Below the pieces are notes generated by a model. The model saw nothing but the letters and a program-made list of their open reading frames with translations, was not told the DNA's origin and searched no databases. Positions 1 to 54,879 of a stretch of 64,000 bases of DNA are shown piece by piece. Source of the stretch: Isoetes taiwanensis (lineage: Eukaryota > Streptophyta > Lycopodiopsida > Isoetales > Isoetaceae); NCBI GenBank assembly GCA_021234155.1, contig JAJEKV010000003.1:28999166-29063165 (forward strand), written 5' to 3'. The first letter of the stretch is position 1. Every line of letters starts with the position of its first letter. A program made the translations under genes and the position numbers.

Positions 1-293
1 GGGGTTACGTAGGGCAACGAGAGCTGTCGGATGGGCATATTTGCCCTTTATTCCAAGATCTGGACCATACATAGCGATCCTCGTTTGTGGGGTATGCATG
101 TACAAGTTTTTGTATACTGTATATTAAGGTTTGCAAAATACTATAAAGTTTGAGAGAATGTACTTAATGGTGTTAATTTTGTACATATATTGTAAATATA
201 TTTTTGGTGCTAGATAAAAGCTCCAATTGGAATCAGACAACAAATCAGAAAATTAATGCAGGGCTTAAAGCTTTACATGCAATGCGGTGCAAC
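1..293 (+). mobile_element. Chimeric repeat: MITE half joined to LINE reverse transcriptase fragment (copy A)
   Basis: This stretch is nearly identical to 15937-16212. Roughly the first 210 bases match, in inverted orientation, the interior of the hairpin repeat at 47909-48393. The last 80 bases encode a piece of a LINE reverse transcriptase C-terminal region (NWNQTTNQKINAGLKALHAM). Homology with the 15.9-kb copy stops abruptly near 293, which suggests that the LINE is interrupted there by the material that follows. The left end runs off the window. Confidence 0.7.
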
Positions 294-510: not shown

Positions 511-3435
511 TCATTTTTCCACCAGCATCCCCAAGGATATGAGAACCTTATTCCTTACATCCTGAGGTATTGTAACTCTCGCTGTTTTACTAGGAATAGT
601 TTTTGGAGTCCACGAGTACAATACGGTTTCAATGTCTAGCCAAAGATCAGGATCACTAGGATTTCTCCTCCACCTCTTTGTCCAACAATCTGAATATCTT
701 TCTTTATCGGTGACATTACTCAACTGATGTACTGGACACCACCATTCCACGCGCACCTTATTGAAGTTAACATCACCTTCTTCTTTGCAAATATCCGAGA
801 TAGTGTATCCCAACCACACTGGATAGGTCTCTAGATCTGCTGGTTTTACTACTACAAATTGGTGGCAACATAGTGTTTATCAGATTGAGGAGGAGCATAT
901 GCCTTCACAATGCTACTAATGGTACCATCATCTTCGTCAGCACCAGCTAATGTTTTCCACTTACTTTTAGGGAACCACCCTTCTTTTAGCTCTTCTGAAG
1001 ATGTGTCTACCTCATCCAACAAGTTGATCACCTTCTTCCAATAATCTATCAATGCACGATTAGTCTCATCTGAATTAGTTTGCCAATGCTTGATGTAGTC
1101 ATTGATGCCATCCTTAGTCAATCCCAATTGCTTGACTTCTTCAGTTGGTTTTAGAGCTTTTGGTTGACCAGGAGGTATCATAGGCTTGCCATTTGCATCC
1201 CTGTGCCAAATTTCTGCCCCACCTCTCCACTTCTCCTCTGAAGGTCTCATTCTCCATTGCATGATTGGAATCCCTTCTCTCACCCAAAAAGTGAATTGAA
1301 GAGGTCTAGAATGACCTTCCATGTCGAGAGCATAACCATACATAAAACTCTTCTAATCAGGCACTTCTTCTATGATAGATCCTATAGGAGATGGATTTGT
1401 ACATCCATGAAATATTTCCAATAGCCTGGGAAAGTTGGTAACTGTCTGCTGTCTCAATACATGACTATATTTTCCAAACAATTCATCCACATCCTCATGA
1501 GTATGTCCGGGCATTAGGAACCCCAAATTGACTCTTTCAAAAATACCCATAGCTGTTAAGTAGGATAGGAAAGAAAACATCCACCTGTTCTTATTTTGAC
1601 CAGCACAATTATCTAGTTGCAAGAGGAGCTTTCTGGGCAGATCTCGAGGTTTAGCACGAGATGTTGAAGCTCCAACATGTTCATTAGGTCCATTCCTCCT
1701 AAACCTTGCCTTGCCAAACTTTTCAATACTATTAGGGGTTCCATCCAACAATGCACTATGTAGTGCCTGGCTAGCTGTAGGATCCTGTAGGTGACCATTG
1801 TAACCCTTCTCATAGTTTCTTAAACACCTCATGATACTCCCAATGTGAAAATCTGGACCATCACTCCACAACTCTAAACTGAAATGGCCATAATAGGTCT
1901 GAGACTGCCCATGCAATATTGCCCCAGTCATTGAAATCTGCAAAGGGTATGATCTTCCACATGACTTAGGAATGTACTTGAATTGTGGAAGACAAGTCTT
2001 CTGTTGGTCCATTTTATCATGTATAATACATAGATAGTTATTAGGTCCTATTGCAGATAAGGTCCTCCACATCCAATAAGTTGATCTACATGATAGTTGA
2101 TCTGTCATATGGTCCTTTCATATGTTCCCTTATCTTTGCCCTTAGACTTGGTTGCACAGTCTTATCTAGTGTCTCCTTCAGCTTAGCACATAAATTGCAC
2201 TTGGCAAAGTTGTTTGAAGTTGCTATGGTCACATGCTTGAAATGCTTATTCCATAGCCTACTAAAACTGGGCTGGGATATAGAGGCCACTCCAAGTTCCC
2301 GAAGCAATGCATTTATTTCCTCTAATATGCTCTTTCTCGGGTACAATGGGATGGCAATCTCTTTTCAACAATAACTCTACCCCTGCTCATCCTTCTTACT
2401 CTTATGTGGCATGTTTTCTACATTGAAATCCACATATCTTTCAAATATTTCCTTTGCGCTTATAGTTCTTGAGGTAGGCCTTATCGGGCCGTTTCCCATG
2501 CAATGCAATTTTACTACCATTTTCATGTCTCTTTTGCCGGTTGTTGCCAAGAAGAGGTTGGAATTCCATGTATAGCCATCCACGCTTTTTGAACATATAC
2601 ACTTTCCATTCAATGGGAATCTTTTCTTCTTTGATCTTTCGTCCTGAATTGCATAGCCAAATATGGTGTACATGAAATTCCTCCTGCTATCACACTTATG
2701 TTCCTGATATGTAACTCTTGCTACCACCATCTCCTCTATTGTGAACATTCTAATACAGAGGCCCAACAACATTCACTTCCTCTAACCTTCATCGTGGCTT
2801 CGGGAGAACAATCATAATCGACTTGCATCTTTTGGTGGGATAATGTTTGAAAGTTGGAAGTGGCCTCTTGCTACACTGTGTGAACATTATTGACAATGGT
2901 TCTACATCTATAGGAAACATGTAGTTCCCCTCCGTTTAATCATCGTCCCTAGGCCATGCAACAATAGTTGGAACCTCTAGTTGCTTCACACAAGCAAGAC
3001 ATTCTTGTTTGCCTGAACCCTTTTCCTTCCAATTGTCATATAATTTTGAGATTGCCACACCTAACCTGTCCTCCCCTAATCTTTCATCATTCACTGCATT
3101 GATAGGATCTGCTAGAACAATAATCCCTTCTCCTACTGCCTCTCTGTTACATGCATGCAGGATCTTGACCTTTTTGTTTTTCCAATCGACCCGAGTGTAA
3201 AGTACAATTTCCTTTCCTTTGGCATCATCCTTTTCATTTGAGGTCTTTTCCTTTCCTTTGCCATCATCAACATCATTTGGAGTCTTTTCCTTTCCTTTGC
3301 CATCATCAACATCATTTGAGGTATTTTCCTTTCCTTGGCCATCATGTTCATTAGTTGGGGATTTTTCCTTACCTTGATCAGCATCATTGGGGGCTTTTTT
3401 TTTAGCATTTTGCATGCCATTGACCTAGAATGCAT
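511..3435 (-). pseudogene. DUF7869-type transposase-like gene, frame-shifted but collinear
   Basis: Six collinear open blocks (2936-3415, 2377-2772, 2086-2346, 1353-2108, 852-1343, 511-819) form one long coding region with frame changes between blocks. The first block is charged and holds four imperfect repeats of GKGKEKTxNDVDD. The block at 1353-2108 carries the signature of plant and metazoan DUF7869 proteins: IIHDKMDQQKT, then LLLQLDNCAGQNKNR, then PGHTHEDVDELFGKYS. Three spaced acidic residues in such motifs look like the DDD/E triad of an RNase-H-fold transposase; that assignment is inference. The C-terminal blocks contain EGWFPKSKW and VEWWCPVHQ. It probably belongs to a DNA transposon whose ends I could not define. 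A second, more decayed member lies at 26756-29487 on the plus strand. Confidence 0.7.
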
Positions 3436-10006: not shown

Positions 10007-10702
10007 CAGGGTTGCCCTTAAGGCCAAATTTGTCTAAGCATAATTTAGAAGGTCGGGCGAATAATAGAGTTGCAAGATTAGTTATGCTGGCGAATGTTTT
10101 CTAGACATGAATGTTTTTTATAGAAATCTAGGCGAATCACGGCCAATATTATTTTGCCAAGATTTAAGTGTCTTAATTTTCCAAATGCAATTTCTGTGGT
10201 GAAATTTTATTCACTGGCATCCATATTTAACCAAGGACACAAACACATTATAACTATAGTTGCATGATGCAATACCACAACTTAACCTTTGCAAATGAGA
10301 ACGTGGCTTATCCTTGTAGATGTGACAAATCTATTTGAAGGGAGGTCTGTAAAAAAATGCTCTCCAGTGCATCCTTAGAAGTATTTGAAACACAATAGCT
10401 ACAAAAATTATCATATGTATCTGGATGGATATGGAGAATAGATTAGGTTATAAAAAGCCTAAAATATTAGGCGATTCCTTAAGAAATCTTTGAGAAGGAG
10501 GGTAGAGGATAAGGCGAATCCATAGTTATGATGCTTAGTGGATGTGGCGAATTTCCGAGTGGAGTGAGATCTATTTGTAGAAATGTTGGCTAATTTTATT
10601 TTTTTCATCTATAATGGGCCCTACTAAATCATAGCGTCAAAATTTATCGATACCCTTAAAAAATAGCCTTTTGGCGAACTTTCGTCCTTAAGGGCTACCC
10701 TG
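10007..10702. mobile_element. Non-autonomous hAT-type element, 696 bp, 8-bp TSD
   Basis: The ends are CAGGGTTGCCCTTAAGG and, inverted, CAGGGTAGCCCTTAAGG. The 8-bp duplication CCTTGAAC flanks it at 9999-10006 and 10703-10710. CAGGG ends with 8-bp duplications are the hallmark of the hAT superfamily. No transposase is encoded; the interior is AT-rich with recurring GGCGAAT words. Its removal rejoins the LINE reading frame exactly, so it inserted after the LINE. Confidence 0.85.
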
Positions 10703-11262
10703 CCTTGAACAAGTGTGACTGATGGGCCCAATCATACAACTCCGCTCTATGACTATTGTTTTGCATTGCATATAGTGCCTTCCAGCCCGCCGTCACTCGT
10801 AGCCGTAGGGATGTGTCCCAGTGCATAGTAGAAGGAAACTTCACTGCCAAATATTTGTATGTGGATGCTACTTCCACATTCTGCCCTGGGTAACTGAAGG
10901 GGGGGATCCTCGGCTGACGTGAAGATGATATGAAAACCACCTTAGTCTTGGCCAGGTTGACGCGTATATCAGTCACTTGACAGAATGTGTCTAGGGCATC
11001 GAGATGTCGTTGCATATCTGCTGGTGTGCAAGCTAGGAGGTCCACATCATCAGCATATATTAACTGTCTGATGATCTGGTAGAGAAGGTGAGCTCCATCG
11101 CCCCCATTATCAGCAAGCCAACTCTCCAATTGATTAATGTAAAGCCCAAACAATGTTGGGGAGAGTTGTCGGCTGCAACCGACCCGAGCATCTTTCATAT
11201 AGCCTGTACACTGCATTCTGCAAATCTACAGGAACCCCCAGCTGTCGCAATGTTTCTACAAA

Positions 11263-13740: not shown

Positions 13741-14248
13741 AGACTGCATTTGGTTTGGTTCTGATGTTAATCATCAGGCCAGGAAGTAGTGCACCATTTA
13801 AAGCTGAGAACGCCTTTGGCTCCACATGTCAAACACAAAATTCCACGGTATTAAATTTGTGAGCAAAAACACTATCTTATATGAAGTTAATTCCAGTTTG
13901 TTCCCTGATTTGTTTTGTTAGTTGTGTTTCACAGGCCCACAAGTTCTGAAGCAACATCAGTTGTGAAGTCTTTCCTGGATGTTGGGCGGAAGCTCATTCC
14001 AACAAACATAGTTGCTGCAGCCTCAGAGCCTAATTATCTTGGAGTCAATTCATTCTCTATCCTATTTGCTTTCGCTGTTAATACGCTTGGTATATAGTGT
14101 GTTTTGTTTCTCTTTTTAAACAATTACATTGTAACTTTGAGGTCTGTGTTCATAATTTCTTACATGTTTCCTTTTTATCAATGTAGGAGAGCAAGCACAT
14201 CCATTTGTTCATTTGATAGAACTGTGCAATGCAGCTTTGCTTAAAATT
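13741..14248 (+). CDS. SLC1/DAACS-like dicarboxylate (glutamate-type) transporter, three consecutive exons, partial
   Basis: Three exons with consistent phases and GT-AG borders: about 13741-13858, 13935-14089 and 14187-14248. The translation runs GLVLMLIIRPGSSAPF, then KSFLDVGRKLIPTNIVAAAS, NYLGVNSFSILFAFAV, NTLGGEQAHPFV and ALLKIV. This follows the order seen in Na+/H+:dicarboxylate symporters of the SLC1 (EAAT/DctA) family: IxPG loop, L(F/I)PxNIVxA, NxLGxxxFSIxFG, GExxxP, MKIV. In that family it lies in the middle of the transmembrane scaffold. I find neither the upstream helices nor the downstream substrate-binding core (hairpins and NMDGT-like motif). An hAT-type element starts 300 bp downstream, so this is probably a decaying or broken gene. 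Flowering plants are, to my knowledge, not known for this family. Confidence 0.6.
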
Positions 14249-14555
14249 GTAAGAAATTAATTTTTTTGTTGCTTTCATCACTTTGTAAATGCTGGATTTT
14301 GTCTTCTTAGCTTTGCTTCATGTTGCTGGGTGCCACTGAAACACGAATCTGGCATAATATATCACAAGAAGTGCATTGTTTTCTGTGGTGCATTGTTTTG
14401 CTGTTGTTTTTGGATATCTTAAAGGTCTTTCTGTTTTGGATGATGATCATAAATCAATTGCTGAAATGCCACTTCAACCGCTGCAGATTTTTTGTGGACG
14501 GGCACCGATTTAGTATTTTGTAGTAGCAACCTGTAAAACTGGTGGTTGTATATCT
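14249..14555. other. Unassigned sequence after transporter exon 3
   Basis: An ORF at 14320-14523 (LLGATETRIWHNISQ...) follows a possible acceptor but does not match the expected next part of the transporter. It holds nothing I recognise. Confidence 0.3.
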
Positions 14556-14823
14556 CAGGGATAGGTTCTGTACGTAAAAAATTCAAAACCCGACATATAA
14601 AGTAAAAAAATACGTATTTTTTAATAAAATACGTATTTAACGTATTAAAACCTCGCCGGCCAGAAAAAAAAAATTTCGCATATGCGAAACAGTGAAAACC
14701 GCAGACGCTGAACGCAAAAAAATACAGACGCTGAAAACCTTCAGATCACTTACGTCGCGAAAGTATTTTCGCCAGACGCTTATATCTGAAAGGTTTCACA
14801 GACGCCGAAAATCAAAAATAAAA

Positions 14824-14915
<92 letters not shown>

Positions 14916-15009
14916 ATATATATATATATATATATTTTTCACAGACGCTTTTTTTTCGATCGCTGACGCCGAAATACTTCGCACGCTAAGATGTAAGGTT
15001 TCACGACGC

Positions 15010-15215: not shown

Positions 15216-15223
15216 GTATATCT

Positions 15224-15790
15224 CTAGCCTTAAAACACATGTCCAGTTGGTTGTCCTTCTTTTGCTGGTTCATGCCTAAGTTCGATTTCCTATGAAAATG
15301 AGTAGATAATGATAGGGACCTGTTTTTCACATATATATTTGTTAACAAAATATAATGCTGCAATCACCATGTGGCTCTTTTGTGAAATATTTCAAGTCTA
15401 AGTATATAGTATTTCCTTTTAGTGGGCACTAATATCTTACTGACATTACCATAGCAAGATTGCATAACACCAATTGGAGAAAGCCTCATATGTCTGTAAT
15501 AATAAGCATAATGCTTTTAGCACATAGGACAATCAAGACATTCTTCTTGTGGACACTAGCATCATATTGGTAGCTGACTAGTTTGTTGCCAAGAGAAGTT
15601 TGCATCATACCAATTTCAAACGTTCTTGTATGTACGTCATGTAAGAGTATCACCATATTCTTACAGTTGGTTATTTTTTGGCACTTATGTACTTACATAA
15701 ACAACCTCTATAGTGTATATTTCTTGGCATTTACATACTTATATAAACAGGCTAACTGGCCCATAAAGTTTACCTATGTTTGCTTTAATT
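15224..15790. other. Non-coding stretch
   Basis: AT-rich DNA between the hAT-type element and the GGGCCCGAAGGGCCC repeat. No feature is supported. Confidence 0.5.
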
Positions 15791-15791
15791 A

Positions 15792-16140
15792 GGGCCCGAA
15801 GGGCCCAAATTTTTTTTTTAATATAACAATCAACACACAACTACCATTAACATTATTAACACAACCATTGCATTTAACACATTTAAATTAAAAACCCCCT
15901 TAAACCCCCTTTGGTTTGGGTGCATATTCACACGGGGGGTTACGTAGGGCAACGAGAGCTGCCGGATGGGCATATTTGCCCTTTATTCCAAGATCTGGAC
16001 CATACATAGCGATCCTCGTTTGTGGGGTATGCATGTACAAGTATTTGTATACTGTATATTAAGGTTTGCAAAATACTATAAAGTTTGAGGTAATGTACTT
16101 AATGGTGTTAATTTTGTACATATATTGTAAATATATTTTT
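15792..16140 (+). repeat. GGGCCCGAAGGGCCC repeat with terminal MITE half (copy B)
   Basis: It begins GGGCCCGAAGGGCCCAAATT, as does the copy at 47909. It then carries TGGGTGCATATTCACACGGG and about 200 bp shared with window positions 1-210. The right part is fused to LINE coding sequence at about 16140 in both copies A and B, so the fusion predates their duplication. Confidence 0.7.
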
Positions 16141-17292
16141 GGTGCTAGATAAAAGCTCCAATTGGAATCAGGCAACAAATCAGAAAATTAATGCAGGGCT
16201 TAAAGCTTTACATGCAATCCGGTGCCATTGTGTGAGGGCCAGAATTAAAAGTTTCAGCATGAAAAAGATGCTATACATTACATTAGTAAGATCTATCATA
16301 TTACATGGTTGTGAGTTTTGAGGACCCACCTTAGCTTTTAATACATGGAAAAAGTAGAAAAAGTGCAAAAAAGATTTCTTAGAATAGAGCTAGAAGTCAA
16401 GGTACATATGCCATATGATATGATGCTAGTTGAGTCTGGAATGTTAACACTTGAAGCGGAAGCCTTATGTAAAACACTTAAATATGTCTATAAAATTTTG
16501 TATACCACGCCAAGCAACAGTTTGCCCTTCAATGGGCTTTGGAGGAAACTTGTGCTAAAGGGCAGATGTCAAATTATGGATGGCAAAATGGGAATGCACA
16601 TAAAAATCTTATCAATTCCACTTTTCAGACAGGTAAGTATCACAAGGAACACATAAACACTAGACATAAACATGCTATTTGTAGAATCAAGTTGAGCTCA
16701 CACAGACTTGAGATCGAGGTTGGCAGGTGGAATAAGATCCTACTTGAGTTACGCCTTTGTCAGCTCTATGGAAGTTCTGAGCTTGAAGATGAATGACATG
16801 TTTTGTTGCATTGCCCTGCGTCAATAAGTATCCGAAAGAAGCATCAGATTTGTGCGCACATAGTTACAGAACTTTTTTTGCTTTTCATGCACAACTATGG
16901 ACCGATATATAATTGATATAATGGATTGTAGAGAGAATAAAATTAAGGTATTGAATATAGTTGAGTTGAATGAGTTAGATGAGGGAGGGACTAATGCATT
17001 CCCATTTGAGGAGATGAATGGTTGTATAGTTGATGTACTTACATGGTGTTTTATAGACTTAGCAATCTCATAGGCATAATAAGTATAATCTCTCTCTCTC
17101 TCTCCCCCTCCGTCCCTCCCTCCTTATTAATCCAACATTTCAACATACTTTGTTACTTTAACAACTCATTTGTGGAGTTGTTTTTATCTATATATTTGTA
17201 ATAATCTATTTAGTTATTGGATAGCTGACGATGTGCGGCTACCCACTCTCAACCAATGTAAAACACCCGCTGAGATGAACGAATGAAAGGGC
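16140..17292 (+). mobile_element. LINE C-terminal fragment with 3' tail
   Basis: Frames at 16139-16321, 16345-16656 and 16539-16796 encode NWNQATNQKINAGLKALHAI, then WKKVEKVQKRFLRIE and SSHRLEIEVGRWNKI, the thumb and C-terminal region of the same LINE family as at 19.4-21.3 kb. Stops and frame shifts break it. The 3' untranslated end contains GCTACCCACTCTCAACCA and GAGATGAACGAATGAAA; a relic of the same tail sits at 34590-34662. Confidence 0.75.
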
Positions 17293-17522
17293 CTGTCTGT
17301 CGGGAGTTTTGATGCATGCTGCAAGTCCAATCATGAGAATAATTTGGTGTTACTGACCCAAGGCATACTAGTTATTACTTGATATATTAATTGCACCATG
17401 AGTTATACATAACGCACATTTTATCTTTTTAATCAATGGCATGTTCCAGTAGTCAAACTCACTTCTAGAGCCTTTACAAGCATCTATAATAAGATATTTA
17501 TGTAGTATTTATTTATATAGAT
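17293..17522. other. Spacer between LINE tail and the Hog gene
   Basis: There is no coding signal; it holds the 3' flank of the minus-strand Hog gene. Confidence 0.4.
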
Positions 17523-17523
17523 C

Positions 17524-17529
17524 TTTATT
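17524..17529 (-). promoter_or_regulatory. Candidate polyadenylation signal AATAAA of the Hog gene
   Basis: AATAAA on the minus strand, about 46 bp beyond the stop codon, within TTCTAATAAAGAT. Confidence 0.45.
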
Positions 17530-17574
17530 AGAATTAGCTGTAGACAAATAGCTATTTATGTACAGCCCATTTTC

Positions 17575-18681
17575 TCATTTGAGCTTTACTTGTCGCTTCA
17601 TGGCTAAGGTTGCTAGAGCAGCGGCAGTTGCAAACATCGTGACACCTCCATATGCTTTGCCAATCTTGGCAATATCAAGCTTTGAATCAACACACGTATA
17701 GGCAGTAGCATAAGCATCCCTTCCTATAATCCTATATAACAGTCTTGCAGGAAAAAGAATTGCCTCATAAGCTGTTGGGAGCCAGGCAGTCATACCCATT
17801 GCATCAAACACTTGATCTAAAAACCATTCACTATGAACTGATGCCAAAACATTATTCACAATTATTTTTCCAGAAAACGTATATGGATTGAATAGGCCTT
17901 GCTTCCAAGTCTTTGATATTTCTGCAATCCAATGCAGATTAATCAACGTTTTGAAGTTAAATAAAATGCAATAGAAAATTACCTATGACAGTAAACTGAG
18001 ATAATGCAGTTGTGTTGGAGTCTGATAGTGACAACAAGACATCGCCAACTTTAATATCCTTTGCTCGTCGATGAACTTGACCTTCTTCTACACTAGAATA
18101 AGTTAGCATTCATAATTGTCTTTTGGACGTAATTTCAGTTTCAATTCAAAGGTAAGTTAATCTAGCACCACCTGACATGATTGGGGCAAAATGAGAATAA
18201 GTCATATGCAGAGTCCTTGTTTCTCCGGCAGGACTTTGGATTATGAGTTGTATATATTCAGAAAGAACGTTAGCATCCTTGTGGCCAAGAGCATAGACAT
18301 CCCCATAAATGATCTCCCCGTATGATGAGATAGAAGTAGCAACCTACGTCAGGCAAAAAATAATGTTATCAACTTATCATTTTAATGTGAAAATCTCATT
18401 ATTCAAAGCAAAAACTAAATTTTGAAGAAGCACCTTGTCACCAATGGCAATATCCTTCATACTTTTGGTGAATCCAAATGGGGTCAACACAAGAGCATCG
18501 CCTACCATTGGCAAAAGCAAAATGTTTAGCTCCAAACCATCACAAGTTAGAGATGGTTATTATTACCTGGGAAACAGCCACTAGTACTTCCATGATCACT
18601 ATCATTTTTGTTACCATTTGATTCCACATAAAAAGGAAGAGCCAATAAAAAAACAAGTAGTGTTGCCCCCACCATTGCCAT
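17575..18681 (-). CDS. Secreted hedgehog-type Hint (Hog) domain protein, five exons, 268 aa
   Basis: Exons on the minus strand: 18567-18681, 18434-18501, 18172-18343, 17983-18087, 17575-17921. All introns are GT-AG and phases agree (807 nt, no stop). Residues 1-21 form a signal peptide (MVGATLLVFLLALPFYVES). A 14-residue polar segment, NGNKNDSDHGSTSG, then precedes C36 in GCFPGDALVL, the exact Gly-Cys-Phe autoprocessing site of hedgehog. Further Hint blocks follow: MKDIAIGDKV; the HKD aspartate in ALGHKDANVLSEYIQL; T-x-x-H in HMTYSHFAPI; AKDIKVGDVLL; and NPYTFSGKIIVNNVLAS. These match the hedgehog catalytic Cys, Asp, Thr and His. The ASC cysteine of hedgehog is V here, and the intein C-terminal HN is absent. 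A hydrophobic VTMFATAAALATLAM lies near the end. The family cleaves at the Cys through a thioester that a sterol can attack; sterol use here is inference. The first ATG is chosen because it gives the complete signal peptide. Confidence 0.88.
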
Positions 18682-18715
18682 TTCTCGTGCTTCTAGTACT
18701 TCCTTTAGTTCTTCT

Positions 18716-18722
18716 TATATAG
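18716..18722 (-). promoter_or_regulatory. TATA box of the Hog gene
   Basis: TATATAA on the minus strand (CCTATATAAGAAG), only about 35 bp upstream of the ATG. Transcription starting at the usual 25-30 bp would leave a 5' untranslated region of ten bases or fewer, so the true start or TATA element may lie elsewhere. Confidence 0.45.
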
Positions 18723-18724
18723 GC

Positions 18725-19115
18725 TAAGATGATCAATTTGCATGAAAAATGGATCACTTGCATTGAATTGGAAGCACAAGTGATGTGACTCGAGTTGAAG
18801 ATATTTATAACATTTTTTGAAATGTTGCCACTTTCTTGCTGGTGTCAACAATTCTTTAGGAATCGGCCATAGGTTTGTACTCCCAAAGTCTTTTATCAGC
18901 ATCTCACCAAATAAAGGAGGAAAAGGAATCCTAGAGTTTTACTTTCAATCAAGATGTGGATGTGTAACTAGAATCAAATTATAGGCACCTACTAAGTGTA
19001 GCAGAATGGGAGAAGGAAGATGTCATTTTTTTGTATCAATGGTGAGTAAAAATGGTTATTCTGTGCAAACAATAATCAAACTACTAAATAGGAAATAAGC
19101 AATGAAGTTCCTTGG
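18725..19115. other. Upstream flank of the Hog gene
   Basis: No ORF of interest; probable promoter region. No motif beyond the TATA box is supported. Confidence 0.4.
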
Positions 19116-19117
19116 CA

Positions 19118-21311
19118 CCAGCATATATAATAATAATAAGAATTATTAACGTCCAACAAAGACCCGTAGGCCATGGGACTACTCTTACAATTTTTTACAT
19201 CTACTCTCTACTGAGAAGAGTATCTTTTTCACTATTGTCAATGTTCTCAAGGAGCTCTCTAATGAATTTTGCCACTTGGCACATTGTAGAGTATTTTTGG
19301 AAAAGAGTTGCCAAGTTCTCATGGTCCCAATCCACTTGGGAGTACTTTTCCCGAAGTGAATGGAACCGAGGGCAATGAAATATTACATGTGCTTCTGTTT
19401 CAATATCCTGCTTGCATCTGCATGTCCTTTCTTCCCTATCTCCCTGTTTCAATCATAAGATGATGTGAACCCATGCGTATTCGGGCTATTGCTTGTACAA
19501 TTCCCGGGTACATGTTCTTATGACTAAGATATAACTGAATGTCATGTTTTGCTTCTGGATTAAAGTCTTCCAAATAGTATCTGACCTTTTTCTTATCACA
19601 GAATCCAATGTACCGCTCAAATGCTTTTTGTTTAAAATTTTCCCCAAAATCTGCCATCGTAAGATGTAATCGGTTCAACCATCGTGTTACATCTTTATGC
19701 CAGCTTGCTTTTCCCCTCCCTCCCAAGGCCGTGGAGGCCTGGATTTCCACACATGCCAAAGATGTTCCCTCTACTCTTTTATTCAAGTATCGGGCAGTTT
19801 GCCAAGCTGCTTGGATCTCCAATGGGTATGATCCACTTTCCATTAACAGAATCTCATACGGCACTGATCTTTTCACTTTAAAAACCATATGTAATAATGT
19901 TTTTTGTATTTGCTCCAACGCATTCCACTTCCCTTTTGGCAAGGACGGACCCCATAATTCACAAGCATACAAAGCAACTGGCATGACTAATGTGTCAAAT
20001 AAGCGTTTCCATATTGGCCAAGACCACACATTTGCTTGCCTGCCCTGATTAAGCATCGCATAGAATGCTTTCAATGCAGCTGAAATCCTGCTATCAACTC
20101 CTTGGGTCCAGCTTCTCCTGCCTGCATACACTTCATGCCCAAGGTATTTGTAAAAATTAACCTGTTCTACTCTCTCTCTTTGATATATAACATTAGCCTC
20201 AATTTTACCAAAGCATACAAGCTTAGTCTTATCCAAATTTACAGTAAGGTCAAACCTGTTGCAAAAATCAGCAAGCGCATCCAACTGTCCTTGCATATCC
20301 TCCTGAGAATATGCTGAGAGCAGCAGATCATCGGCAAAAAGCAGTAGCACCACTAGCTCCTTCTGTATCCGTGGGAATTTGCAACCTTTTGTTTGGAGAA
20401 AGCTTTCAAGCTGATCCACATATAGACCAAATAGAGTAGGTGACATTGGGCAGCCTTGCTTCACCCCTATATCACTAGGTATTGCCCCTGTCATACCCAT
20501 TGGAGTGGCCACTTTTCCTTGCACATTTTGGTAGAGTCTTCCCACTACAATGATCCATTCTTTGGGCACCCCCAACTGTGTTAATCTGTCTATTAATTTT
20601 TGCCGCGGAACCGTATCGAAGGCCTTTGCAAAATCAATAAAGCAACAAATCAAAACTTTGTTCCTAGACTTAGCTTCCTCCACTATCGTACGAAGTGTGA
20701 TCAAATGATCAAGAGTTCCATACCCGGCCCGGAAACCTGCTTGCCCCTTTGCTCTAATACCATTTTCATTTGCCCATTTTGTCAGCTTAAGATCAAAAAC
20801 TTTACCAAATAGTTTAACCAGAATTAGACTTATCATGATTGTGCGATAATTTCCAGGATCCGCTACGTCTGGCTGGATAATGCTCATGCTCCACTCTGTT
20901 GGGAACCCTTCCCAAATTACTTGGTTAAAAAGTAATGCTATTACTTCTGTCAAAATTGGCCCCCCTGCCTTCAGGTGTTCTGCTCTCAAGCCTGTAATAT
21001 CGCATGCTTTGCCACATGCTAACAATCGAATTCCTTCCTCAACATCACTAGCATCTACACAAAAGTGTGCGGATGTGCATTCTGGTATCTGCAGTTTATC
21101 AATGCCTTTAAAATAGAGATGAAGCGCATATGCATACCATGTATCTAAATCTGTGAGAGAGATCTCTTGTACAATGGGTGACAGCTTCTTCCAAAATCTC
21201 TTTGTATCCAATTCCATTAGCATCTTATCTTGCTGTGCATGTTCCCAGCTTTTTTTCTTGTCTCGGACCATTTTGCGATACTTTTTCAAACCTAACACGA
21301 TTGCAAATTAA
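19118..21311 (-). mobile_element. LINE, 3' half: reverse transcriptase and C-terminal domain (family of 29835-31230)
   Basis: The 620-residue frame (19436-21298) holds a full reverse transcriptase: GFRAGYGTLDHLITL, CFIDFAKAFDTVPR, GVKQGCPMSPTLFGLY, LLFADDLLLSAYS and NLDKTKLVCFG. It ends in IRMGSHHLMIETGR. The next frame (19201-19452) adds a Cys/His finger, CRCKQDIETEAHVIFHC. The 3' end is a (TTATTA)n tail at 19125-19145. The 5' side stops exactly at the inverted-repeat element at 21312. Its missing N-terminal half, ending in DTVAGNKVAY, resumes at 29835 on the same strand. The two halves together make an endonuclease-type LINE of about 3.6 kb. Confidence 0.9.
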
Positions 21312-23284
21312 ACGGGAGTGTTGCATCACTCCCGTTTCAAAGATTCCCTTTAAAAAAACACCAAGTTTCTAAAATAAGCCTTTTTTGATAGTTGTTAAGA
21401 ATTTCTAGAGGTTTGCATTTTTTTTCATGCCATTTTGGCCCATTATTAGACGAAAACTTTGTACTTATGAAACACAAATCATAAAAATAGCAAAATTTAG
21501 GCATATACTTGAAGAGACTGAAAGCATTACAAAAAACAAGCACCAGAATAGAAAGGAAAAAAAAGTACTATGTTTTTAATAAATTGTTGTACATCAATAT
21601 TGAAGATTCATTGTAATAAATAATGATAATTTTAATATGCAGTAGTCAAAGATCTACATCATAGTCCTCCTCATTCTTTTTGCTGCTCTCTGCCATCTCG
21701 TCCTTCTGTTCTATCTGCTCCTTTGCTGGAGACTTGAGTTTTGTATCCTCCTTGTTCTCTGGAATGGTAGCTAAAGCTACTTCTTTAAGCTCTGCAAAGG
21801 TTGCCTCATCGTCTAGTGAGCTGGAGAATGGAGGCTGTATCTCTGAGGACGTTAGTTTAGCATAATCAGATGAAGACTTGGCCCCTAACTCCTGATTTTC
21901 ATCTGGTAAAGTAGGTAAGGCAGCCAGTCTCATCTTCACAAAATGCACAGCCTCCTTATCAATATCCACGGCTACACAGTTGCGGCCCTTCTTAAGTGCA
22001 CATGCGATAGTAGTACCAGAACCAGAGAAAGCATCAAGTACCCAATCTCCTGGACGCGAGAACATGTCCAGGAGATGGTTGATGAGCTTTTGTGGTTTCT
22101 GGTAGTGATTCACAATCCTGCCTTGTGCACTTGGGTCCCGCAATTTCGAAGACCGCTGGAAACTCTAGGACGTTTGAAAAGTTTTGACAAAGCAAGCAAA
22201 GTGTTAAAGTGATCCATGGTCCTCTTCCCATCAAAACTCCAATAAGCTACATGAAGGTACTCTACCTTGCTGAGCAACCTTGGTCCTCCACCATGGTAGT
22301 TGATGTTCGTTTTGTACCTAGTGAAGCATTTAAAGTGATGTTAGCAAAAACAAGAAAACACTTCAAAACCGTAAACAGAAATACTATTCCTAATACACAC
22401 TCACGTAATTAAAGAGAAAAGTAATTGTATTCGGAATAAGACTTACCGCATAAAGGTTTTCATATCCCCGCCTGAACCGAGAACCAAAGTGATTTTGAAA
22501 GCTGATTCCACCAAGCCGCATCGCATGCTCGAAAGTGGAACGTAACTAAACGCCAATGTTTGGCCGTTGAGATCTGCTTGATTCCTTCAATGAAAGCATT
22601 AAACTCTGAAAATTTGAAGGGCTGGTCGTCAGATTCTGCCGCCTTTAAGCTTAAACCCATAGGGAAGATCAGCAATAACCAAAGTAAAGTCCTCGTGGGC
22701 TTAACCGTTCGAAAGGTTCGTGCAATCACCATGAATGATTGAATATAAATTGTTTTGATCAAACATGCAATCTCTCAGAGTCGGATGGTTCGCTCAACAG
22801 CTTCTTCTTTCAAATTAACGACCTCTCTTCCCGTGCTGTTCTAACCAAATTCATAAAGCCCTCGGGTAGGTCTTTATTTTTCTTTTTGCTCTAAAGAAAA
22901 ACAAAACAACAACTGTCAAGAGATCATTTGTGCAGAGAGAAGGAATTCTAAGTGTAATTACCCAGCCCCTCAAAATTTGGTGAATATTGGACAATGCGCC
23001 GTCCGGATGTGGCAATTGGGTAGAGTTCCTTGCACCTTTCCCATGTGTCGACGCTTAGTCGCTCCATCAAACATGTTTGACATGTTATGACGTTTTTTTG
23101 GCTGCAAGACGTTAAGGAAACAATGAGTTTAAACGAAAGAATGAAGGCAACGTAAAAGAAAAACAAATACAAGTCAAGCTATTTGTATTCTGGAATACAA
23201 ACCGGTTAACTTGTGATGCTACCTCGAAACAATATGCAGAAAATAGTTCTACTACAGAATGTTAGCTTCTCTAAAGGAACGCAT

Positions 23285-23458
23285 GCGTATTCCATAATAC
23301 ACAGCCAACATTCGGGAGGAGCAATGTGTATTCGAATACACATGCCTTCCTTCACGGGCAATGTGTATTCCGAATACACAATGCCTTTCTAGAGACAAAG
23401 CAATGTGTATTCCTAATACACATTGCCCGTAAAGGAAGGCATGTGTATTCGAATACAC
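23285..23458. repeat. Palindrome array 1: five GTGTATTC-n-GAATACAC sites
   Basis: Sites at 23285-23302 (variant), 23326-23341, 23363-23379, 23405-23421 and 23443-23458. The unit is GTGTATTC, 0-2 bases, GAATACAC. The sites sit within a larger inverted repeat (ATGCCTTCC..GGAAGGCAT). They lie in an intron of the ParB/methyltransferase gene. Single related sites occur near 22427, 23183, 23775, 25546 and 26117. Confidence 0.85.
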
Positions 23459-24754
23459 TAGCTACCGATGTTTTTGGGAATCTAACATGCAATAACTAAT
23501 GTTTGTGTCGAGAACTTACTTGTGTAATTCCTTTGACATTTCTTCTAGGCTAAACTCCTTATCAACAACTTTTTGGAGAAGTCGCCGAGAAGCTCCGCGT
23601 CGAGAAGCCCCGCATTTCCGGCCGACGGTAATGGTCATTTCTTTTTGGTACGCCCGAGCTTTTTTCTTAGCTGTCTCCTTTCCCTTGCTCTTTAACTCCC
23701 CTCGCCAACATTGTAAATATCCGGTCCCGAGTTCCCAAATCTGTTCAAGAAGATTCACGTTAAATAGTTGATTTGCTATTCTGGAATACATTTTGTGCTT
23801 ACCTTGCCATCTCTAAAAGCTAACTGGAACCAGTTGTCGTGGCCAATGAGAGACTGCCTTTTGTTGGCCTCGCATATATTTCAGCAAAGATTCAATGGCA
23901 CACGCCTCCTTAAGCTCCAAGGAAAATGCTGGCTTCTTCAGGTCCTCACCGTACTTTTCCTTGAATATTACGTACTCCCTGTGCATGAACCGGATCTTGT
24001 CGACGAAGCTCATCTTTAGTTTATATTCGTTGTCAGCATTGTGGGTGTTGGCAACGATTTTCGCTTCTTCATCGGTAAGACCACAGTAGACAGCGCAGAG
24101 GACGGAGAGGTACCTCGGGTTCTTCTTCTCTTTATAAAGTTGCCTTCTTGCCTTAAAGCTGTGATTGCCTCCCAAGACGTAGTGAGTGTAGGTCTCTGCG
24201 TTTTCTCTGTCATAGTCTTGGGGGGTTTTGCACTCTTCCCTGTCAACAAGGACAACTATTGGGGCCACATGAGCATTTGGATTGCTCCTTATTCTGTCTT
24301 TCAGGTTCCTTAAGTGATCGGCATAAATTTTGCGAACCTGAAGTGGCCTTTCACCAGCTTCATTTTTCGGTGGAAGCTTCATTGAAGTGACTGGCAAGTA
24401 AATTACACCTTGCACAAACTTGTGCAGGTTAATCTCTTCCATCTTTTCAGCTGTCTTGTCAACTTTTTTTTCCTTAATTGCAACACCAGGTGCTTTACCC
24501 TTCCCCTTCTTCTTCTTAGGTTCCTCGGAAATATCCTCTGCTGCAATTAAGGCTGTCTGCTTTTTTTTAGGCTCTTTAGCAGCAACTGTTTGCCTTGGCC
24601 GCTTCTTTGGTGGTGGTGACGGTGGCCTTTCGCCGGACTGTGATGGACTCCCAGATTGTGATGAGGAACTGCTCGGGCTCGGTTGCTCATCCTCTTCCCC
24701 TTGTGATGACTCGCTGTAGGGGAAGTCTTCGCTCGTTGTGCTTCGAACATAGTT

Positions 24755-25076
24755 GGGTAAAAGCATGTTAGGGTGTCCCTTAAAAAGTATTATTTAGTGA
24801 CTAAAAAGGTACCTAAAAAGGTAGCCAGGACTGGGTACTGGGTACCTGTATAATATCTCAATATAAGGTATGTTTTAGAACTTTTTATATATATATTGGT
24901 CTCCGATCGCATTATCTTTATCTTAACTTTGAATATTACCACGTCCTTGACTTTTATTTTGGATTTTTGTATTAGTTTTAATGAAAAGAAAAATGAGAAA
25001 GTACCCAGTTCTGAAGTACCTAGTGTATGTACTTTTGCAGGTTCCAAAAGTGGTACACCCTAACATGCTTTTACCC
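24755..25076. mobile_element. MITE, 322 bp, 4-bp TSD, inside the ParB gene
   Basis: The ends are GGGTAAAAGCATGTTAGGG, inverted at the right side. The duplication AGTT flanks it at 24751-24754 and 25077-25080. On the minus strand, excision restores ATC ATC AAC TAT GTT CGA, joining LCAII to NYVRSTTSEDF in frame. A second family member is at 43474-43734. Confidence 0.85.
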
Positions 25077-31239: not shown

Positions 31240-34200
31240 TTGTCAAAACTTGCGAAAACTCTTACTAGGTTTGTGTGGCAAACAGTTGAGTATGGTGAAG
31301 AATTGAATCTTCCTTGACAATTGAACTTTCATTCTTCATATTCAATGGACAAATTCTATAAACTCAATATCCATCAAGTACAATGTGAATTCACTACACA
31401 ATACAATAAAATGCAGCAGTTTTGCTCAGAATCTTCTAGCGCGACCATGCTCCCAAGCTCCATATCTATGCTTGCTTGCTACTTCACTGCACATGCATTC
31501 ACTGGGGTTAGTCCTCGTGACTAAGTGGGGATCCCTGGCTGCCACTGCATGCATGGGAATACTCTGGAAATCTTGGATAAGCACAAACACAGACGGAAAA
31601 TCCTACGTGAGTACAACGCTATCACAATGACAACATAATCCAAGGAAATACCAAACAGGAACATTAGAAGCAAACAACATAGTCAAAATACCAAACCATC
31701 ATGACACATAGCTCCGGGACAATGGGAAGCTCAGCCAGCCTACATGCAGGCCCTGTTAGCAGAGAAATGCCCGGCCAGCTCACATTCCGAGCCCCGTTGG
31801 CAGAGTTGGTGGGGTGAACCTCGTATGCGCATACCCTTCCCAGCCCACGTCTGGCGCTGGAGGACCTCTTACCATGGAGTTCACAAGAGTTGACGTGCAT
31901 CCCCTTCCACTGGACGCCACGCCCGGTGTCACAAAGCACAAGAACATATCACAGAGAATCACAGATGACATGAGTAATGCCGGAACAACCTAGGCCACCG
32001 AACCTAGAAGCCCGACCCCGGAGGATCCAACAGACATAATCAAATACCAAGACAACAGTGGAACAATGCAAGACCATAACATGTGCGTTCATTAGAGAAT
32101 TTACTATAAATGTGCCTAGATTATACTCTTGCCGATGTTGCCGTACAACTTGCCATATTGAAGCAGCGAACTTACTGATCCAAATATGTTGAGGAAGTCA
32201 CAAGCCTAACCATCATTGGTGTAGCTCCCATACCTATGTTCTTCACTGAACAAGGAAAGACAACATTCCAAACAATGCAAACTCACCCCAGAACCATTCT
32301 CCCATACGGATAATCCATTAGCTACGATGCTTTTGTTAAAATATTGCAACAACTTAGAAACTTACAGATATAAGATATACACTTAGACTAATAGTGCTCC
32401 ATGCCATAGCCTCATCTGGACACTCCATATACCTCATATTACTCTCTCGGCCCAACTTCTCCGGGTCTCCAAAGTTCCAACATGCTTTCTTTCTTTAAAA
32501 TTATTAGCTAAGGTTTTAATATTCCATATTAAAACCCCCAAGTTCCTTAGCTTTCAATTTAATAGCACATCTAATGTATATTCTCGAAATCACGCACTGC
32601 CAGCTTAAAAACCCACTCCGTCTCATGACCGCAACTGTCGGTAAGCCTTGTCCACTGTTCCCAGGCTATGCCCCATCTCTAGGAGCAAGCCGGTACAACT
32701 TTTATTCATTCTTAACATGTTCTTCTTATGATTATTAAATTACGCATTATTTCCCTACAACGATTATCCCAAGCAATTAAGTTTTACATGCCTCTGTTTA
32801 TTATATTTTCCTTTCCAAATAGCTTGCAGCTCAAACAAGTTTACTCACTGAATAATCTAGACTTCATGCGAGCTCCTTATGCTCCTTTTTCCCCTTGAAC
32901 CACCAATTTATTAAGTACACATAAGACAAAATACAACAAAAGTGACAACAAGGAACAAACAAGACAATAAAATTACCCACAGAACCAGCAAACGCAGACC
33001 CACTTTTGGGTCTGGCCTTCCGACCTGCACAGAAGCATTTTAGGGGAGCAATCGACCTGATTAGGCATGGCTAGAGACTTCTGAGGCCAGATCGGCCCCT
33101 CCAGAAGCCAAATCGGCATTCAAGATTCCCTGCTTGGCTCCCTAGGAGCAGTTTCGGCCCCTTCCAGGCCCAATTTCGGCAGCTCCAAGATGCCTCTCTT
33201 GCCTCTGATTCACTGTGTCTGGGCTAGATCGGCCCTTCTGAGGCCCAAATCGGCCTCTATTATGCAATTTCGGCCTCTGTCCCATGGATTTGGGTCTGAT
33301 CTGAGGCAGTTGGGTCTTCTTCCTGTGCCATGAAATGATCATGCCGACCTCTAAGTCACCAGTTCAGCCCATGATTCCTTCAGTCCAACCTCTTATTCAA
33401 CCGAATCCATCTGTTCTGGGTCCCTTTAAGAAGCTTCCATAAGCTTAGCATCCAACTGTGGCAATTCTGCTGCAGGTTAAGCCGTTGATGTAGCCCATAA
33501 TTTCTCAATTAATTCTACAATTCATGCAGCAAAACTTGCTCTACCAAAGCATCAACAGCTCTTACCATAGCTATTACACAGGGAATCATTACCCAAAGCA
33601 TGCATCTAATGATTCATAGCAGCTTATAACTCACTTGAATTCGTGAAAACCCCACCTGATAAGAGAAGATCTGATGCAGTCTTCAAGCTCCAATGTCCTT
33701 TCTTCAACAATCCTCCCGGTGCAATCCTTCCAAGCTCCTGCCTTCCCATAGCTTCACGTTTGCAAAAAGCCCTCTTTCCCAAAATTGTCTTATTTTGTAA
33801 ACCCTTTGTTTACATGAGACCATGCTGCATGCATGCCACAAGTACATATACAACTCATATACGTACCATACACAAATGCATATACTGAACCATTAGGTAG
33901 CCAGGTCCGTTACATTCTATCTTTTTTCCTGTTCTCCATGCATCTAGCACGCATGATTTTTCCTGTTCTCCATGCATCCATGCATATATTATCGCACAAA
34001 TAATTAGAATTTGAAGCATGTGCATGAAGATCTATGATTTTTGGGTTTCCCCTAGGGGGCAAACCAAGCCTTAAATTTGAAATGTTCGGTACCATTCTTG
34101 GGAGTCCTAGCCATGCAGAGAACTGCAGAGAACGGCTAAATTTTTTTTAGACATTCTTAAGAATGACAACAGAAAATTTTTACCATTCAATAGAAAAACC

Positions 34201-34430
34201 TAGGAAAAAGTGCCCCTTCAATAGAATGGCCATGATTATGGAAAAAAAATTATTGCTTACATTATATATTTTTCTCTTTATACTTTACAGTTTAATTAGC
34301 AAGCTTACTTAACCTCCCTTACAATAGTTCCTGCAATTCTAGCTTGTCCATGTGGCATAATTCTAGCCTATTCACATGACATAACACATCAGCTAAACTT
34401 AACACCAAGCCGAAAATTTCCAAGCCCCTT
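31240..34430. other. Long non-coding stretch
   Basis: I recognise no gene. 33050-33300 repeats imperfect AATCGGCC/TTCGGCCTCT words. 31700-31930 is GC-rich with short shadows of ORFs only. 33940-33975 repeats TTTTTCCTGTTCTCCATGCATC. No element ends could be defined. Confidence 0.4.
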
Positions 34431-44718: not shown

Positions 44719-44856
44719 TGGTTTTTGAGCAGTCAGAAAAACTTCAAAGGAAAATAGAATCCTTAAATCTGTGCTTGCCTCCCTTAACCAACTCGAAGAA
44801 GATGCTCCTCTATGGAACATTCGCCACACAATTCGTAGGGCTTATCTATCAAGCAT

Positions 44857-45250
44857 TTGGCTATGGCGTCAACCTGTTTTGTTCCTTCTTCTCCGACCTC
44901 TGCACCATTTCCATCGCTACCATTTGGACAATGCGCTTACGTAGCGCGATCCATGTTTATTTTTCAAAAACCGAGCCACCCAAATTCAATCCACGCTGCC
45001 GGAATAGGATTGAAGATTCAGCATTTGCCAGCCATTAGGGCAAACAAACAGAGCAGCGCAGAGATTCGTCCACCAGAAAGCAAAGAAGAGGCCATAGCAC
45101 AGGCAAGGCAGGCTCTGGCTGCGGTACTAGAGAAGCCAGTAAAGCGCCAAGGTCCGGCCTTGGTAAAACAGAGGATTCAGAAAAAGCAGCCTAGGTTTAC
45201 AGTTGAGATTCCAGTTTTGGAAGAAACAGGGCAAAATATAGCGAATCTAG
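44857..45250 (+). pseudogene. LPA3-like (DUF1995) chloroplast protein, N-terminal fragment
   Basis: The frame begins MAMASTCFVPSSPTSAPFPS, a Ser/Thr-rich chloroplast-transit-like start. It then reads ESKEEAIAQARQALAAVLEK and KKQPRFTVEIPVLEE, characteristic of the DUF1995 domain in LOW PSII ACCUMULATION 3, which takes part in photosystem II assembly in the chloroplast. The match ends around residue 130 (NIANLASFF). The next bases hold no donor site and no further LPA3 sequence, so this is a truncated copy. It lies 140 bp after the frame-shifted exon at 44015-44718 on the same strand. Confidence 0.6.
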
Positions 45251-45309
45251 CATCCTTTTTTCTTCAGATCGGCCACAAATCACCTCAGGCCCTTACCCAT
45301 CACTAATAC

Positions 45310-47908: not shown

Positions 47909-48393
47909 GGCCCGAAGGGCCCAATTTTATTTTCAATATAACAACCAACACGTCGCATGCGACGTGTCTCCAGCGACATCTGCGTCATGTCTGTGTCACG
48001 TGGTCAGACGTCGCATGGACGTGATCCAGAATCCAGATGCCGCTACAGACGTCGCTAAATGGCCTTTCTCCTGTTGTGACAAACCAACACATTTAAATTA
48101 AAATCCCCCTGAAACCCCCTTGGTTTGAGTGCATATTCACACGGGAGGTTAAGTAGGGCAGCGAGAGCCCCTAAAAACTTGCAATACATGTACAAAATTA
48201 GCACCATTAAGTATATTCCCTCAAACCTTATAGTATTTTGCAAACCTCAATATATAATATACAAAAACTTGTATATGCATACCCCACAAAGGAGGACCGC
48301 TATTTATGGTCCACATCAAGGAATAAAGGGCAAATATGCCCATCCGACAGCTCTCGGTGTTCGGAATAACCCCCCATGTGAATATGCATCCAA
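47909..48393. mobile_element. GGGCCCGAAGGGCCC repeat with a MITE having about 45-bp inverted ends
   Basis: It starts GGGCCCGAAGGGCCCAATTT as at 15792. From 48128 GTGCATATTCACACGGG is mirrored near 48393 by CATGTGAATATGCATCC, and AGGGCAGCGAGAGC by AGCTCTCGGTGTTCGG. The interior is the inverted version of window positions 20-210. A GACGTCGCATG-rich patch lies at 47950-48060. Confidence 0.6.
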
Positions 48394-48399
48394 AAAGCA

Positions 48400-54690: not shown

Positions 54691-54879
54691 TGCATATAAA
54701 AATACGTACTTGTATTTGGAAATTCCACATCCCTTGATTTGGCATATTCGTAGGATTGTCTTGGGATCCAAAAAGACTACTTGTTGGTGTGATTTACTCG
54801 AGTCAATATACAAGCAACACTAGATATATTATGTTTGAAGGAAAGAATGAGAACTTGCAAGTAGAGTTCAGGCCTCAGC

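Follow-up and report, generated by a model that had tools for sequence, protein, structure and literature searches.

The 64,000-nucleotide stretch of the Isoetes taiwanensis genome analysed here (the window) carries on its minus strand, at 18681-17575, a five-exon gene whose 807-nt coding sequence specifies a protein of 268 amino acids with a predicted signal peptide and a hedgehog-type Hint (Hog) domain. All four introns, of 65, 90, 84 and 61 nt, have GT-AG borders, the exons are richer in GC than the introns (0.405 vs 0.303), and the predicted frame scored best of the three in five of five exons, using a codon score trained on a PPR gene elsewhere in the window. On the strength of the intron borders, the length of the coding sequence and the coding signal, the proposal of the first-pass annotation that five exons splice cleanly into 268 residues was borne out computationally. 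The exon structure is kept in a nearby copy and in more distant paralogues, and the phase-1 intron following exon 1 lies at a position common to the clade-B and clade-C models described below. The gene is real and, judged by its sequence, a Hog of the working type. Its features are as follows, the two regulatory elements being putative and taken from a reading of the sequence.

18715..18721, minus strand: TATA-like TATATAA, about 34 nt 5' of the start codon
18681-18567, minus strand: exon 1, with the start codon, signal peptide, short cargo peptide and Cys36-Phe-Pro, ending in a phase-1 donor
18619..18681, minus strand: predicted signal peptide, residues 1-21 (MAMVGATLLVFLLALPFYVES), by hydrophobicity and the -3/-1 rule
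18577..18618, minus strand: predicted cargo peptide, residues 22-35 (NGNKNDSDHGSTSG), between the signal peptide and the Hint domain
18574..18576, minus strand: Cys36, after Gly35, aligned with the catalytic Cys258 of Drosophila Hh
18501-18434, minus strand: exon 2, DALVLTPFGFTKSMKDIAIGDK
18343-18172, minus strand: exon 3, bearing His82, Thr109 and His112
18281..18283, minus strand: His82, occupying the site that in Drosophila Hh holds the general base Asp303
18191..18202, minus strand: T109-Y-S-H112, the TxxH motif (T326/H329 of Drosophila Hh)
18087-17983, minus strand: exon 4
17921-17575, minus strand: exon 5, with the end of the Hint domain (IIVNNVLAS block), the tail and the TGA stop codon at 17577-17575
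17578..17835, minus strand: post-Hint tail, residues 183-268, a candidate adduct-recognition region
17524..17529, minus strand: AATAAA, resembling a poly(A) signal, some 46 nt 3' of the stop codon

The signal peptide had also been noticed previously, and simple rules agree with it: no other run of 19 residues in the protein is as hydrophobic as residues 1-19 (mean KD 2.23), and the -3/-1 rule is satisfied at V19-x-S21. Only 14 residues lie between the predicted end of the signal peptide and Cys36, and NGNKNDSDHGSTSG would be the cargo of the window gene provided that the signal peptide ends at residue 21.

Searches were made against Pfam, NCBIfam, the PDB, and prokaryote and viral sequences, using a 269-residue variant of the protein that would result from an alternative intron-3 donor. 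The assignment to the hedgehog type of Hint domain, for which a Pfam profile search had been suggested, was confirmed by a match to PF01079 (E 1.6e-25; score 90.4 bits, cut-off 29.7); a weak match to PT-HINT (15.7 bits, cut-off 27.7) was the only other one in Pfam at E up to 1, and no NCBIfam family matched at E up to 10. The best PDB match was Drosophila Hedgehog (E 4.4e-8), with the D303H variant 6tyy scoring higher than the wild-type 1at0 (35.6 vs 31.6 bits). Local alignment with the Drosophila Hog gave a score of 125, which 2000 shuffles approached no closer than 57, and 41 of 163 aligned residues were identical. The C-terminal block matches as had been supposed, with NPYT...IIVNNVLAS in register with the Drosophila sequence and motif J present at the end of the Hint domain, where GKIIVNNVLAS aligns with GTIVVNSVAAS. 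The HN of intein C-termini is indeed absent from that end, and no intein family matched the protein in Pfam at E up to 1 or in NCBIfam at E up to 10; the first-pass expectation of cleavage in place of splicing stands.

Two related architectures were considered and rejected. A Vint (VWA-Hint) protein does not fit, since Pfam at E up to 1 gave neither a VWA nor a Vint domain and motif J is present, and nor does Hedgehog proper, as there is no Hedge domain, only 14 residues before Cys36, His82 in place of Asp303 and no HWY motif.

The Gly-Cys-Phe reported at the start of the Hint domain is where it should be, Cys36 aligning with C258 of Drosophila Hh and Gly35 preceding it. The further statement that the aspartate, threonine and histidine of the active site are all in register holds for Thr109 (T326) and His112 (H329) but not for the aspartate, as the D303 position is occupied by His82 in three alignments (phmmer, local BLOSUM62 and MAFFT). 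The aspartate of "HKD" lies two residues after the D303 position and is Glu in the clade-C copy; on these alignments its earlier placement is a register error. The position of C400 is taken by Val. Each of the 11 stop-free family copies that were aligned has the equivalents of C258, T326 and H329 together with the His at 303, and the C400 position was Val in 10 and Ala in one. His82 is of interest in that D303 serves Hedgehog as its general base, and a Hedgehog carrying D303H has been described as retaining its structure and activity whilst accepting a wider range of sterols (PMC9163320, PMC8529194). Replacement of the motif-J Cys is known from other plant and red algal Hogs, in which the equivalent of C400 is Ser, Thr or Asp (PMC2362128), rather than the Val or Ala of the quillwort. 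To call this a complete autoprocessing signature was an overstatement, since His at D303 with Val at C400 is not canonical Hedgehog.

The Hog family of the quillwort genome

The window gene belongs to a family of at least 25 loci, fragments included, in three clades which were set by sequence, with no tree underlying them. Genome searches gave at least 33 exon matches with the Pfam profile and at least 68 with the protein query, and 24 loci, the window gene among them and many of them clustered, were modelled on contigs C1034, C974, C59, C1026, C1045, C916, C1096 and C1036. Five further places were found, three on C1034 and two on C1036; the total is given as "at least 25" because one of the five, C1036:4453828, is possibly part of a broken copy that had been counted already. 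The clades are distinguished by their cargo, which is 13-14 residues long in clade A, made of extensin-like SPPPP repeats in clade B and a hevein chitin-binding domain in clade C. From its sequences, a cargo-swapped family of wall-protein Hogs with His at the base position looks new.

Clade A consists of the window gene (A1, at C1034:29016740-29017846) and relatives on C1034, and includes a near-identical partner of the window gene.

15216..19128, no strand assigned: duplicated segment whose second copy, at locus L025, lies at a distance of about 30 kb on contig C1034, which also carries the window

The matching blocks comprise 3327 columns at 97.1% identity and 583 at 95.7%, and it is because these long, near-identical blocks include the non-coding flanks that the window gene and L025 are regarded as a recent duplication. 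An extra block of 330 bases (98.5% identity) is shared between the L025 locus and window positions 14177-14506. Within the Hog part the window gene and its twin are separated by 4.0 synonymous and 2.0 non-synonymous changes, too few to weigh much. Pieces of the L025 locus also match window positions 1-290, 33974-34381 and 48179-48394 (87-98% identity) and have the look of dispersed repeats. Three more C1034 loci (A3, A4 and A5) match parts of the gene and were compared over exon 1, 131 bases each; A3 has a local frame change and reads CFLC where the others have CFPG, and A4 and A5 are the same in sequence, MAMVVATILVFLLALPFYVELGDSRNDTGGSTGG-CFPG.

C1034:28411133-28411564 (plus strand) and 28422314-28422742 (minus strand): A4/A5 (L040, L041), divergent clade-A copies, inverted, about 11 kb apart, with identical exon 1

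The 3' parts of A4 and A5 were not among the genome matches listed. A short segment with a terminal Gly before the catalytic Cys is found also in A2, A4 and A5, and a short, Gly-ending cargo thus recurs in clade A.

Of the 18 clade-B loci examined, six are open from ATG to stop (L010, L011a, L016, L017, L021 and L022b), six have in-frame stops (L011b, L012, L015, L020, L022a and L024b) and six are incomplete or have no in-frame start (L009, L013, L014, L018, L019 and L024a). The open copies are ordered as signal peptide (MARAIAL...), SPPPP repeats, KQV or KEV, CFPG, Hog domain and stop, and encode proteins of 310-615 residues with 77-383 residues ahead of the Hog domain, lengths of cargo which may include slips because stretches of the repeats are out of frame. 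This is seen in L011a, L016 and L017, where the repeats lie partly in a shifted frame (His-Leu and Ser-Thr runs), and suggests frequent slips or assembly errors in the clade-B N-termini. All six open copies have N-terminal parts with 36-53% Pro and 5-10 motifs of Ser followed by a Pro run (SP(2+)). Ser followed by Pro runs in secreted repeats is the extensin pattern, and by its repeats the clade-B cargo would be extensin-like (HRGP-type); Pfam returned no extensin match in the two clade-B proteins scanned. The residue at -1 to the scissile bond is Val, not Gly, in all six, which could slow thioester formation in this clade.

Four clade-C loci were modelled, all on C1036, and three of them are broken.

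C1036:4413556-4412127 plus stop: open clade-C gene, with signal peptide, hevein domain, Pro/Ser/Gly linker and Hog domain

The protein of the open copy matches Chitin_bind_1 (PF00187, E 4.3e-8) and Hint (E 1e-27) in Pfam, and lectin-C in the PDB (E 2.7e-22); by these matches the clade-C cargo is a hevein-type lectin domain.

Conservation was assessed over 11 Hog domains free of stops, namely A1, A2, one from clade C and eight from clade B, 13 modelled copies being dropped (six clade-B copies with stops, four starting late or ending early, and the three broken clade-C copies). Between the window gene and the clade-C hevein copy dN/dS was 0.26 (232 codons, dS 0.93), and against the eight clade-B copies it was 0.26-0.36 at a dS of 1.4-2.0, which is near saturation. 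Constraint within clade B was weaker, with dN/dS values of 0.21-0.63; these values and the many broken copies indicate that some members of the family are in decay or under weak constraint.

The tail and the sterol-recognition question

In the region that follows the Hint domain, taking residue 181 as its start, 29 of 88 columns do not vary among the 11 family members; in the Hint domain the figure is 48 of 145. Between A1 and the clade-C copy, tail dN was 0.256 and dS 0.757, and the tail, like the Hint domain, is constrained by purifying selection. All 11 of the plant copies aligned, and Drosophila too, have a P-x-R that resembles the HPR helix, the first helix of the animal sterol-recognition region (SRR), and the alignment shows a neighbouring Leu shared with that helix as well. 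The HWY motif (motif L, the second SRR helix) is absent from the tail.

No comparison of the tail with the animal SRR reached significance. Using hhalign the probability was 1.4%, with 11 of 300 shuffles as high, and a PDB search with the tail returned nothing at E up to 10. In local alignments 579, 1687 and 1137 of 5000 shuffles were as good as the real sequence; end-free alignment under four gap settings was equalled by 93-761 of 5000 shuffles of the tail and by 79-559 of 5000 shuffles of the Drosophila tail, and global alignment of the first 48 residues of the tail by 181 of 5000. As the alignments disagreed with one another, no SRR is claimed, and the tail is put forward as a candidate adduct-recognition region. 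Exon 5 modelled alone in AlphaFold2, without an alignment, had a pLDDT of 40.6, and this model was discarded.

Proposed release of the cargo and competing explanations

Cleavage, the nucleophile, localisation and the biological role of the protein are matters that we infer from the features above. The reading we favour, with a probability of roughly 0.6, is that the window gene encodes a lycophyte Hog-domain autoprocessing protein in which a thioester would form at Gly35-Cys36 and a secreted cargo would be released. The signal peptide would bring the precursor into the secretory pathway, where the Hint fold would activate the Gly35-Cys36 bond and Cys36, with Thr109 and His112, would give the internal thioester; His82, standing in place of Asp303, would then activate an alcohol or water, whose attack on the thioester would detach the N-terminal cargo and give it a new C-terminus, whilst the tail may pick the nucleophile and/or keep the precursor at the membrane. 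This applies to the quillwort protein the mechanism of the Hedgehog Hint domain, a Cys thioester followed by a nucleophile (PMC9163320, PMC13060885), in which the cargo is a bystander to the cleavage (PMC13060885). Because the cargo of the sister genes consists of extensin-like repeats or a hevein lectin domain, the Hog module may serve, at the C-terminus of secreted cargo that is mostly of the cell wall, as a device for its release and perhaps for its capping with lipid. The loss of C400, the missing HWY motif, a tail that is not significantly SRR-like and the many broken copies all count against autoprocessing.

In animal Hedgehog the nucleophile is cholesterol. A plant sterol is, by analogy, an attractive guess for the quillwort, and the released cargo would perhaps bear a sterol-like alcohol cap. 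An extended form of this idea, which we offer tentatively and consider rather unlikely, is that the quillwort Hog would be an exchangeable C-terminal cassette whose extensin-like, hevein and micro-peptide cargoes are each self-cut and capped by a sterol or other alcohol. Were this true, a lipid anchor would be made without the GPI machinery, using a natural His base and a recognition tail of plant type, the product of the window gene would be a sterol-capped 14-residue peptide, and extensins and lectins might be anchored in membranes by a route other than GPI. Covalent modification of proteins by sterol has been called singular to animal Hedgehog (PMC7242414). The family makes testable both the role of a non-animal Hog and the question of what Hog domains attach, and it supplies natural variants of a reaction so far examined mainly in Hedgehog.

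There is the possibility, which we hold to be doubtful, that the Hog domain cleaves by hydrolysis only (or to a small thiol), so acting as a self-removing pro-domain and leaving a cargo without a lipid cap. Wall cargo such as extensins and hevein requires no lipid anchor, and the tail is without significant animal SRR motifs; moreover, Hh mutants which lack the SRR are reported to be proteolysed without sterol (PMC7242414). However, the purifying selection on the tail, with its 29 of 88 invariant columns, is beyond what a mere protease would seem to need, and a His at 303 fits an activated alcohol (PMC9163320). It is improbable that the window gene is an inactive or decaying copy, the relic of a duplicating family, despite its being a recent duplicate of L025 (blocks at 97.1% and 95.7%) with many broken siblings and a reverse-transcriptase ORF (19436-21307) on one side, as its reading frame is complete with coding signal in five of five exons, its catalytic residues are invariant and its dN/dS to the clade-C copy is 0.26; the 4.0 synonymous vs 2.0 non-synonymous changes from its twin point the same way and weigh little.

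The functional product might instead be the Hog fragment, in which case the 14-residue cargo would be a leader that does nothing. In favour of this, clade A has a very short cargo that is only loosely conserved between A1 and A4/A5; clades B and C, however, hold sizeable and recognisable cargo at the same site, and we give this alternative little chance. It is scarcely credible that the gene is an intein or encodes a BIL or Vint domain, or that it comes from a contaminating bacterium. The Hint fold is common to all of these domains and there is the weak PT-HINT match (15.7 bits, cut-off 27.7), but nothing in NCBIfam at E up to 10 matched and Pfam at E up to 1 gave only Hint and PT-HINT, and further counter-evidence comes from the spliceosomal introns, from the number of copies, carried on contigs as long as 34.7 Mb, and from scans of prokaryote genomes, viral contigs and phages, of limited reach, which produced no relative.

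Known Hog systems and the surroundings of the gene

A Hog gene in a vascular plant had been thought notable in the first-pass annotation; this has to be withdrawn, as Selaginella moellendorffii and S. lepidophylla are already in Bürglin 2008 (PMC2362128), and a Hog in a vascular plant is not new per se. The Hogs of Physcomitrella patens and Selaginella resemble those of the quillwort in having a Hog domain with the motif-J Cys replaced and in belonging to non-seed land plants, a vascular genus among them (PMC2362128). The P. patens protein has, like the window gene, a signal peptide, described as a good one, and an ancestral secreted Hog has been postulated (PMC2362128). However, the moss and Selaginella proteins have in common an upstream region that, by that account, was found in no other organism, whereas the quillwort cargo is a 14-mer, extensin-like or hevein, a distinction made by description only (PMC2362128).

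With Drosophila Hh (1at0; 6tyy) the window gene shares the Hint fold by profile, the Gly-Cys start, the TxxH motif and the order of conserved blocks; it differs in lacking a Hedge domain and the HWY motif, in having His and Val where Drosophila has Asp303 and Cys400, and in a tail that is not detectably an SRR. The choanoflagellate Hoglet, in which a cellulose-binding domain is joined to a Hog, has like clade C a polysaccharide-binding cargo, but the binding domain and the lineage are different and the two are likened by description (PMC2362128). The short Hog of a nematode, Xiphinema Shog1, is similar to the window gene in its signal peptide and very short cargo, predicted at 15 residues (PMC2362128), though it is of animal lineage and the likeness is one of architecture only. 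The Hog and kelch-Hog proteins of the Cyanidiophyceae form, as in the quillwort, an archaeplastid multigene family with varied cargo; these, however, are red algae with kelch or trefoil domains and largely subtelomeric genes, in contrast to the clusters and the extensin-like or hevein cargo of the quillwort (PMC13353863).

Algal Hog and Hint reports exist (PMC13353863, PMC3879662), and beyond these the relevant work recognised in the plant literature was Bürglin 2008 (PMC2362128) only. "Hedgehog" is nowhere mentioned in the Isoetes genome paper (PMC8566536, main text). A literature search found no report of an extensin-Hog or hevein-Hog, weak evidence of absence as subscription papers were mostly outside its scope, and suggests that the cutting, and perhaps lipid-tagging, of wall proteins by a Hog is undescribed in the accessible literature.

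Other features observed in the window are listed here, the three minus- and plus-strand reverse-transcriptase entries being ORFs or remnants with RVT_1 or zf-RVT.

852-2117, minus strand: a pair of neighbouring ORFs, DUF7869 (E 1.6e-34) being found in the longer one; possibly derived from a mobile element
10695-11225, minus strand: reverse transcriptase
14807-14940: long palindrome of AT dinucleotides, some 2.6 kb from the Hog gene
16342-16656: ORF on the other side of the Hog gene from 19436-21307, reverse-transcriptase-like by eye, with no Pfam match
19436-21307, minus strand: reverse transcriptase, 0.8 kb from the Hog gene
21646-22164, minus strand: ORF with the DNA methylase domain N6_N4_Mtase (E 1.1e-16)
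23813-24793, minus strand: 326-residue ORF upstream of the methylase ORF, with no Pfam match
44839-45306, plus strand: ORF with DUF1995 below threshold (19.3 bits vs 26)
50308-52062, plus strand: reverse transcriptase
54865-56919, plus strand: PPR protein with an E motif, 684 residues in one ORF

The 326-residue ORF is reminiscent of ParB-like proteins, and our guess is that it and the methylase ORF are one intron-containing gene (21646-24793, minus strand). PPR proteins with an E motif are typically land-plant organelle RNA editing factors, and the presence of one at 54865-56919 fits a land-plant host.
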